Below, in pieces: positions 6,331-34,914 of a stretch of DNA of 64,000 nt. The notes under the pieces are model-generated. The model worked only from the letters and a program-made list of their open reading frames with translations. It did no database searches and was not told where the DNA came from. Numbering within the stretch: the first letter of the stretch is position 1; every line of letters starts with the position of its first letter. A program made the position numbers and the translations under genes. The stretch is from Clostridiales bacterium 38-18 (GTDB taxonomy: Bacteria; Bacillota; Clostridia; Peptostreptococcales; Acidaminobacteraceae). The stretch is from assembly GCA_001897605.1 (NCBI GenBank), contig MKTL01000006.1, forward strand, positions 611,132 to 675,131, written 5' to 3'.

Positions 6331-6405
6331 CTGGTCCTCCTGTGATCAATCAAAACTGATGTTTGAAATAAAGTCTATCAATTAATTATACTGTTCTTCC
6401 AAAAT

Positions 6406-6458
6406 AAAACTGTCTAACGCTATTAGACATTTTTAGTCTAATAACGTTAGACAGTTTT
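6406..6458. promoter_or_regulatory. Double BlaI-type operator that also forms a terminator hairpin
   Basis: Two copies of GTCTAA-N5-TTAGAC lie at 6412-6428 and 6436-6452, centred 24 bases apart, just upstream of the BlaI-like gene. Their outer flanks are complementary, giving a 14-bp inverted repeat (AAAACTGTCTAACG) around both sites. On the minus strand the hairpin ends in TTTTATTTT immediately after the stop of the GNAT gene at 6468, so it probably also terminates that transcript. Confidence 0.8.
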
Positions 6459-6467
6459 GTCAAGTCA

Positions 6468-7046
6468 TTATTTTCTTAAATCACAAGATCTGTCTTTCAT
6501 CTGTTCCCATTCACTCTTTAAAAGTCGATAACACACGCGATCATATAAGATGCCATCGATGGCACTGTGCTTCACTAGGTGTGCTTCTTTAACCATTCCT
6601 AGCTTGATCATTATATTTTCTGAGGTAACATTGGCCTTATTACAGCCTGTTTCAATTTTTATGATCCCGCCTTTTGTAAAGGCAAAATCTAAAACCGATT
6701 TAGCGGCTTCAGTCACATACCCTTTTCCCCAAAATGACTTTAATACAAAATAGCCCATTTCTGCAACTGCACCTTCAGTAGCTTGCTCAGAAATCGTGTA
6801 GCCTATATCTCCAACATAGTTGCCGGTAGCCTTCTCCTCTATCGCTAAGAAAACCTTAAGGCGGTTGTCGAGTTTTGCATGTTTCATCGCTTCAAATAAA
6901 TTTTCCCTTGATTCATCCATGGAATGCGTTCTTAAATCCGATATAAAATAGGTATTTTCGTCACTGGATAATAGCTGATGAAGTCCCTCTAAATCCTCGT
7001 ATTCATGGTCTCTAATGATCAATCGATCTGTTTCTAATCTTATCAT
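6468..7046 (-). CDS. GNAT N-acetyltransferase, RimJ/RimL type
   Basis: 192 residues. It begins with the typical RLETDRLIIRDHEYEDLEGL strand and contains the acetyl-CoA loop region VLKSFWGKGYVTEAAKSVLDFAF, followed by the RimJ-like NVTSENIMIKLGM segment. The family acetylates protein N-termini or small molecules with acetyl-CoA; the substrate is not evident. Its start overlaps the stop of the upstream lipoprotein gene by four bases, so the two are translated together. Transcription probably ends in the BlaI operator hairpin. Confidence 0.88.
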   Translation of the reverse strand: MIRLETDRLIIRDHEYEDLEGLHQLLSSDENTYFISDLRTHSMDESRENLFEAMKHAKLDNRLKVFLAIEEKATGNYVGDIGYTISEQATEGAVAEMGYFVLKSFWGKGYVTEAAKSVLDFAFTKGGIIKIETGCNKANVTSENIMIKLGMVKEAHLVKHSAIDGILYDRVCYRLLKSEWEQMKDRSCDLRK

Positions 7047-32249: not shown

Positions 32250-32279
32250 AACCTTTCGAATACTCATTCAAATATATAT

Positions 32280-32322
32280 CCAAATAAAAAAGAGACTGAA
32301 ATTCAGTCCCTTTTTTATTTGG
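32280..32322. terminator. Strong bidirectional terminator
   Basis: A nearly perfect palindrome (CCAAATAAAAAAGaGACTGAA, mirrored) with T6 on one strand and A6 on the other separates the convergent Sel1 gene and the gene at 32353. Confidence 0.9.
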
Positions 32323-32352
32323 ATTATTTATTATGGAATGTCAAAGATAGTC

Positions 32353-33376: not shown

Positions 33377-33640
33377 TTACTTATCTTTATTGCGCTTTTG
33401 TTGATTGCTATCTAGCGCCACCCCTATCGCTACGCCTATTGCTATTCCTAAAGCCAGATTATCAAATATAATCCCATAAGCAACACCTAAAGCAATCCCT
33501 ATTCCAATAAAAGAGCCATTTTGATAAGCTTTCTTTTCCTTCGTATTATTGTTTTCAGTTGTATTTTTTTCTGTATTTATATTTATATTTTCATTTGCAT
33601 TTGATTTTTCATTATTTTTATTATCCTGTTCTAAACTCAT
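33377..33640 (-). CDS. Small Asn/Lys-rich protein with glycine-zipper helices
   Basis: 87 residues. The first 38 are almost only Asn, Glu, Lys and Thr (low-complexity linker); the remainder is two Gly/Ala-rich hydrophobic helices (GSFIGIGIALGVAYGII and LALGIAIGVAIGVALDS) that look like a glycine-zipper membrane hairpin. GGA precedes the ATG. Such small proteins occur in many Firmicutes; function unknown. Confidence 0.6.
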   Translation of the reverse strand: MSLEQDNKNNEKSNANENININTEKNTTENNNTKEKKAYQNGSFIGIGIALGVAYGIIFDNLALGIAIGVAIGVALDSNQQKRNKDK

Positions 33641-33858: not shown

Positions 33859-34511
33859 TATTCACTCTCCTCAACTGACTGGCGCCCTTCTACTTTTTCC
33901 TTTAGAATTAAATAGGCAGCGTAAGACCAAGGATGATAACACTTCATCTCATGTCTTTGGTCATACATGTGTTTTTGATAAATGAAAAGTGCCTCATCTA
34001 AATCAGTTGCTTCTCGCAATTTTTTAACAAGTGGCTGATCCTCTTTTTCCTTCCAACTGGTCTTGTCGGATAGGTGTACTATTTTAGCTATTAAGGAAGG
34101 TTCCGCCTTTAAAGTGGTATGGCACTCAATGGCTTCAAGTACAGCTTCATCTTTAATATTAAAAACAAACTCAGCTAAAAATCTAGAACAGATTTGATGC
34201 AGGATACTAGGCGCATTTTTCTCACAGTTAGTAGCGATGTAGCCAAAAGACTCACAAAAATCAAAAACCGTTTCAGCAGGAATCACTCTCCCGACATCAT
34301 GAAGCAGGACCCCTATCTTACATCGTTCATAGGTTGTGGTATCGAGTGAATATCTTAATTTATGTAATTCTAGTTCTTCAAGTACTTCAATCGTATGTTG
34401 ATATATATCCTTCTTATCAAGGGTGTTAAAAAAAACTTCAACCTTACTTTGAAGGTCTGAACCCTCTAAAAATGGATCAGGTTTAAGTCTGTATCGTTCT
34501 AACAACTCCAT
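33858..34511 (-). CDS. HD-domain protein (predicted phosphohydrolase)
   Basis: 217 residues. The HD pattern is visible: HTIEVLEELELHKL for the first His, then CKIGVLLHDVGRVIP with the HD pair, then EAIECHTTLKAEPSLIAKIVHLSDK with later ligands, as in small phosphohydrolases such as YqeK-type proteins. Substrate probably a nucleotide. Its stop overlaps the start of the truncated GNAT remnant. A TATAAT at 34599-34604 on the minus strand is a likely -10 box. Confidence 0.8.
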   Translation of the reverse strand: MELLERYRLKPDPFLEGSDLQSKVEVFFNTLDKKDIYQHTIEVLEELELHKLRYSLDTTTYERCKIGVLLHDVGRVIPAETVFDFCESFGYIATNCEKNAPSILHQICSRFLAEFVFNIKDEAVLEAIECHTTLKAEPSLIAKIVHLSDKTSWKEKEDQPLVKKLREATDLDEALFIYQKHMYDQRHEMKCYHPWSYAAYLILKEKVEGRQSVEESE

Positions 34512-34640: not shown

Positions 34641-34712
34641 TTCAATATTCAGTTAACAGAATTCTAATGAAATTCTCATGATATAGAAAGCACTAAGTGC
34701 TATAGTAAAGCT

Positions 34713-34806
34713 ATAAAAAAACCAACTCTGAACCAGTAGCTATGCTCCGTGAAACCACCCCCAAACCCCAAGGTTTCCGCATAGTTGCCGGTTTTTTGTT
34801 TTTTTG
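34713..34806 (+). ncRNA. Candidate small RNA with C-rich loop
   Basis: A nested structure is visible on the plus strand: CTATGC (34740-34745) pairs with GCATAG (34779-34784), GAAACC (34751-34756) with GGTTTC (34772-34777), and the terminal loop between them is the C-rich ACCCCCAAACCCC. The RNA would end in GGTTTTTTGTTTTTTTGG. An extended -10 (TGcTATAGT, 34699-34707) lies at the right distance for a start near 34713. No ORF covers it. I do not recognise a riboswitch class. Confidence 0.55.
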
Positions 34807-34882
34807 GTTAACAATCACCTCTATTGTTAACCATTTCGTTTTTATAGTTGACATTCTGCGTGAGCGCCTCTATACTGTTAAC
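34806..34882 (+). promoter_or_regulatory. bioY-bioB promoter with GTTAAC-type operator sites
   Basis: TTGACA (34848-34853), 17 bases, TATACT (34871-34876) form a strong promoter ahead of bioY. Around it lie GGTTAACAA (34806-34814), TTGTTAACC (34824-34832), GTTGAC within the -35 region and TGTTAAC overlapping the -10 (34876-34882). These resemble BirA half-sites, although spacing and orientation differ from the classical operator. Biotin-dependent repression is likely. Confidence 0.7.
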
Positions 34883-34914
34883 GTAATAACAAATTAATCA
34901 ATCAGGAGCGTTTT

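Follow-up and report, generated by a model that had tools for sequence, protein, structure and literature searches.

The intergenic region upstream of bioY

The window (the whole stretch of 64,000 nt that was analyzed) originates from a Fusibacter relative: its bioY and the bioY of Fusibacter bizertensis share 81% identity. In an intergenic region of 403 nt, two divergent genes face away from each other. The HD-domain gene (PF01966) starts at 34511 on the minus strand and has an extended -10 promoter-like site of its own (34627-34599, minus strand). bioY and bioB (PF02632, TIGR00433) are on the plus strand. The element under study, which an earlier note on this DNA had described upstream of bioY, lies between these genes and on the same strand as bioY. 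Because the flanking genes are divergent, no annotated gene reads into the element. The features of the region are as follows.

34678-34706, plus strand: putative promoter with a weak -35 (ATGATA), 17 nt and an extended -10 (TGCTATAGT, 34698-34706); 9/12 with TG in a consensus scan, position p ~0.01
34713-34797, plus strand: predicted small RNA of ~85 nt, starting 7 nt past the -10 and ending in the first U-run, possibly extending to 34805; deduced from promoter and terminator
34730-34794, plus strand: hairpin, an intrinsic terminator; from fold, shuffle test and inspection of pairs
34757-34771, plus strand: C-rich apical loop ACCCCCAAACCCCAA, the proposed pairing site; from sequence and fold
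34792-34805, plus strand: termination tract U6-G-U7, which abuts the stem; from sequence
34806-34833, no strand assigned: inverted repeat GGTTAACAAT-N7-ATTGTTAACC, whose right arm coincides with the left half of a BirA-like operator; from sequence, scan and the bioY upstream regions in loci L007 and L010
34848-34876, plus strand: bioY promoter TTGACA-17-TATACT, downstream of the element; 11/12 in the scan and kept in F. bizertensis

Two neighboring reading frames deserve mention. A small ORF (34742-34897) was rejected: it begins inside the stem, crosses the terminator and the bioY promoter, and has no assigned family. At 33377-33640 (minus strand), an 87-aa protein is encoded, which has an N/K/E-rich head and a glycine-rich, membrane-like tail; no family scored above its cut-off.

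The hairpin and its direction

The element contains a genuine RNA hairpin of the terminator type, whose C-rich loop is unusual. On the plus strand, 22 pairs (34730-34734/34790-34794, 34736-34745/34779-34788, 34749/34778 and 34751-34756/34772-34777) enclose a loop of 15 nt. Two T-runs follow immediately 3' (T6, 34792-34797; T7, 34799-34805), and the hairpin thus has the stable stem and directly adjoining U-run of an intrinsic terminator. Upon sequence inspection, the stems, the loop, the T-runs and the extended -10 were all found where the earlier note had placed them.

Both the hairpin and its terminator grammar were evaluated computationally. The segment 34713-34806 (plus strand) folds at -27.9 kcal/mol, compared to -12.2 +/- 2.7 for 20,000 dinucleotide shuffles of the same segment, none of which (0/20,000) folded as low. 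The entire 403-nt intergenic region was scanned for hairpins joined to a T-run, and the best one is that at 34730-34794. Its score of -24.4 was not equaled in any of 1,500 shuffled intergenic regions (best score: -18.4). Hairpins of such stability are nevertheless not uncommon in the 64 kb: the element ranks ~35th among all 90-nt windows, and many of the other stable ones are coding sequence or ordinary terminators. With ordinary intrinsic terminators, it shares a GC-containing stem that is followed by a U-run. It differs from them in its large C-rich loop, in having no incoming gene and in having its own promoter-like site.

Two other strongly structured places were noticed in the window. At 6381-6490, there is a long near-perfect inverted repeat, AAAACTGTCTAACG(C/T)TATTAGACA...GTCTAATA(A/G)CGTTAGACAGTTTT, which folds strongly on both strands. 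A long, bidirectional terminator-like hairpin (ATCCAAATAAAAAAGAGACTGAAATTCAGTCCCTTTTTTATTTGGAT) is found at 32261-32350, at the end of a 610-aa ORF.

The earlier note had left the direction of the element uncertain, on the grounds that the same structure also ends in T7 on the minus strand. This uncertainty is smaller than had been thought. On the plus strand, the stem ends (34794) inside T6, whereas 8 nt separate the stem from T7 on the minus strand. Three G-U pairs of the plus strand (34730-34794, 34737-34787 and 34739-34785) are all lost on the minus strand, and the hairpin score drops from -24.4 to -14.9. Because these three pairs and the stem-abutting U-run exist only on the plus strand, that strand is clearly favored for the hairpin. 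A minus-strand RNA ending in T7 (34721-34715) is very improbable. That T-run is indeed present at this place, but it is detached from a stem with three broken pairs, and the minus-strand fold is at best slightly more stable than shuffled sequence (z -0.3 to -1), with 378/5,000 shuffles of the exact reverse complement folding as low.

Relation to bioY and to other genomes

Being directly upstream of bioY and on the same strand, the element might be taken for a cis-acting bioY leader, an attenuator whose hairpin stops transcription as long as no signal opens it. We consider this quite unlikely, since the predicted bioY promoter (34848-34876) is downstream of the hairpin, which places the element outside the predicted bioY transcript, and since the 17 nt that precede the hairpin are too short for a sensor. 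Nor was a riboswitch found in Rfam. A BirA-like operator half (TTGTTAACC, 34825-34833) is also located downstream of the hairpin and upstream of bioY. In F. bizertensis, bioY has the same promoter and a full box (TTGTTAACC-N14-GGTTGACAA), and the box of the next congener is TTGTCAACC-N14-GGTTGACAA; the hairpin is absent upstream of bioY in both. As a conserved promoter and a BirA-like box thus serve bioY beyond the hairpin, the element is most probably not its leader. The genome codes for a BirA-like helix-turn-helix protein, its score against the family model being under the curated cut-off.

The host deviates from its congeners in this box (34806-34853). Its right half reads GTTGACATT, the spacing is changed by one, and an additional GGTTAACAA forms a palindrome with the left operator half, with a 7-nt spacing.

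An Rfam scan and a covariance search of related genomes had been suggested in the earlier note. In strict and in permissive Rfam scans, there was no real match to an sRNA or riboswitch family (the gathering cut-off of the covariance models was not reached). It is single-copy in its own genome. The covariance model was built from one sequence and therefore reaches near relatives only. No homologue was found in three congeners, among 41 genomes of the family (its own included) or among 297 genomes of the order, where strict filters could have missed weak relatives. Because no homologue was found, there is no covariation to report. All BLAST and covariance matches over genus, family and order are generic terminators or coding sequence, and the two best covariance matches are terminators that lack the C-rich loop.

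Its occurrence in one species only, and its absence at bioY of the congeners, would fit a remnant of inserted or decayed DNA (a MITE, a phage or an old terminator) that has no present function. Such an origin is unlikely: the structure is still intact, there is a single genomic copy, and phages, plasmids and viral contigs (the latter searched with the exact core) contain no match.

A candidate small RNA and its possible targets

A terminator between divergent genes that has no annotated gene to end favors a transcription unit of its own. The extended -10 is at the right distance, while the -35 is poor (ATGATA). The chance that an extended -10 falls in the 60 nt preceding the hairpin is ~1% (p ~0.01), although in the window as a whole TGnTATAnT is about as frequent as expected by chance (20 occurrences against 16 expected). 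The consensus scan also returned other weak promoter-like sites upstream of the element. These sites would be compatible with an orphan intrinsic terminator, which shields bioY from stray plus-strand transcription (antisense to the HD-domain gene) and yields an RNA without function. The lower stem (ACCGG/CCGGTTTTTT type) has a form that is generic for terminators, and the covariance matches in relatives are terminators of this kind. We rate the orphan terminator as a serious but rather doubtful possibility, as a stem of 22 pairs with a C-rich loop of 15 nt is larger than is usual for terminators, no upstream gene points into the element, and the extended -10 is correctly placed.

With somewhat more confidence than doubt, we regard an autonomous plus-strand small RNA (sRNA), with a C-rich loop that pairs with ribosome-binding sites, as the best explanation. 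The ~90-nt small RNA that had been proposed earlier thus holds up in part: a stand-alone, terminator-ended RNA on the plus strand best fits the anatomy and the gene layout, but neither a homologue nor an Rfam family could be attributed to it. We infer promoter use, the RNA and its pairing as follows. An independent sRNA gene would be located between the HD-domain gene and bioY. Transcription would start near 34713 from the extended -10 promoter, ~17 nt before the stem, and would stop in the U-run past the hairpin. An RNA of ~85 nt is probably made from the element, which is an unverified candidate. In this RNA, a single-stranded, A-rich 5' tail of 17 nt would precede one long hairpin, which would double as terminator and as scaffold for the C-rich loop. 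The loop would probably act as an antisense sequence that pairs with G-rich ribosome-binding sites, perhaps with the help of Hfq, which is encoded in the genome.

The window contains Shine-Dalgarno sequences in which 4-6 G follow in a row. With up to two mismatches allowed, the genome has 21 sites for the loop (ACCCCCAAACCCC), and the reversed control also has 21. Pairing with ribosome-binding sites is plausible, but the complementarity does not exceed what a C-rich sequence would be expected to show. One loop-complementary site is the ribosome-binding site (AGGGATTTGGAGGTTTAAGATG) of the alpha subunit of a biotin-dependent decarboxylase (mmdA by model TIGR01117, E 3e-275, with the frame followed as far as the locus end). 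At this site (locus L070, 1500-1521), 11/13 positions (GGGATTTGGAGGT) pair with the C-rich loop. The duplex has -15.3 kcal/mol, compared to a best value of -14.0 and a median of -5.95 for 56 ORF starts of the window, mmdA having been picked after the search from the 21 chance-level sites. TTTGGAGGT is a common ribosome-binding site in this genome (58 TTTGGNGGT sites before ATG, 16 in the control), and the mmdA site is one of many. What makes it suggestive is the biotin dependence of MmdA together with the position of the element next to bioY, and we treat it as a lead only. It is tempting to speculate that a species-specific sRNA beside a biotin importer gene represses the ribosome-binding sites of biotin-dependent enzymes (mmdA) through its C-rich loop and so spares biotin in shortage, as RyhB does for iron, but such a specific role is far-fetched at present.

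One site that precedes an ATG (C4:31230), a perfect complement (TTTGGGGGT) to 9 nt of the loop, was discarded, as it leads only an 8-aa frame. Sister loops in the same genome were also rejected, their match count being equal to that of the reversed control pattern. The best match (AACCCCAAACCCCC) resembles, by eye, the antisense of a tRNA gene, and most others are in long open frames.

The proposed pairing mechanism is already known, because C-rich regions of Firmicute sRNAs pair with Shine-Dalgarno sequences. This applies to RoxS/RsaE, and CsfG and FsrA are named as having such regions (PMC4409812). LhrC from Listeria pairs with Shine-Dalgarno sequences through, among others, its C-rich (CUCCC) terminator loop (PMC4132741), a likeness to the element, for which pairing is only proposed. 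However, LhrC is multicopy and has three pairing sites with UCCC motifs, whereas the element has one copy and one loop (ACCCCC-AAA-CCCC) without UCCC. RsaE/RoxS, CsfG and FsrA from Bacilli are likewise short RNAs of Firmicutes in which C-rich regions are single-stranded (PMC4409812), but they have several such regions instead of a single hairpin loop, and the element has no Rfam match. Membership in any of these families (LhrC, RsaE/RoxS, CsfG or FsrA) is not supported. Having neither relatives nor convincing targets, the element is one added candidate, plausible but orphan. In Fusibacter, for which a literature search found no sRNA study, it would, if transcribed, be an sRNA of a known mechanistic type.
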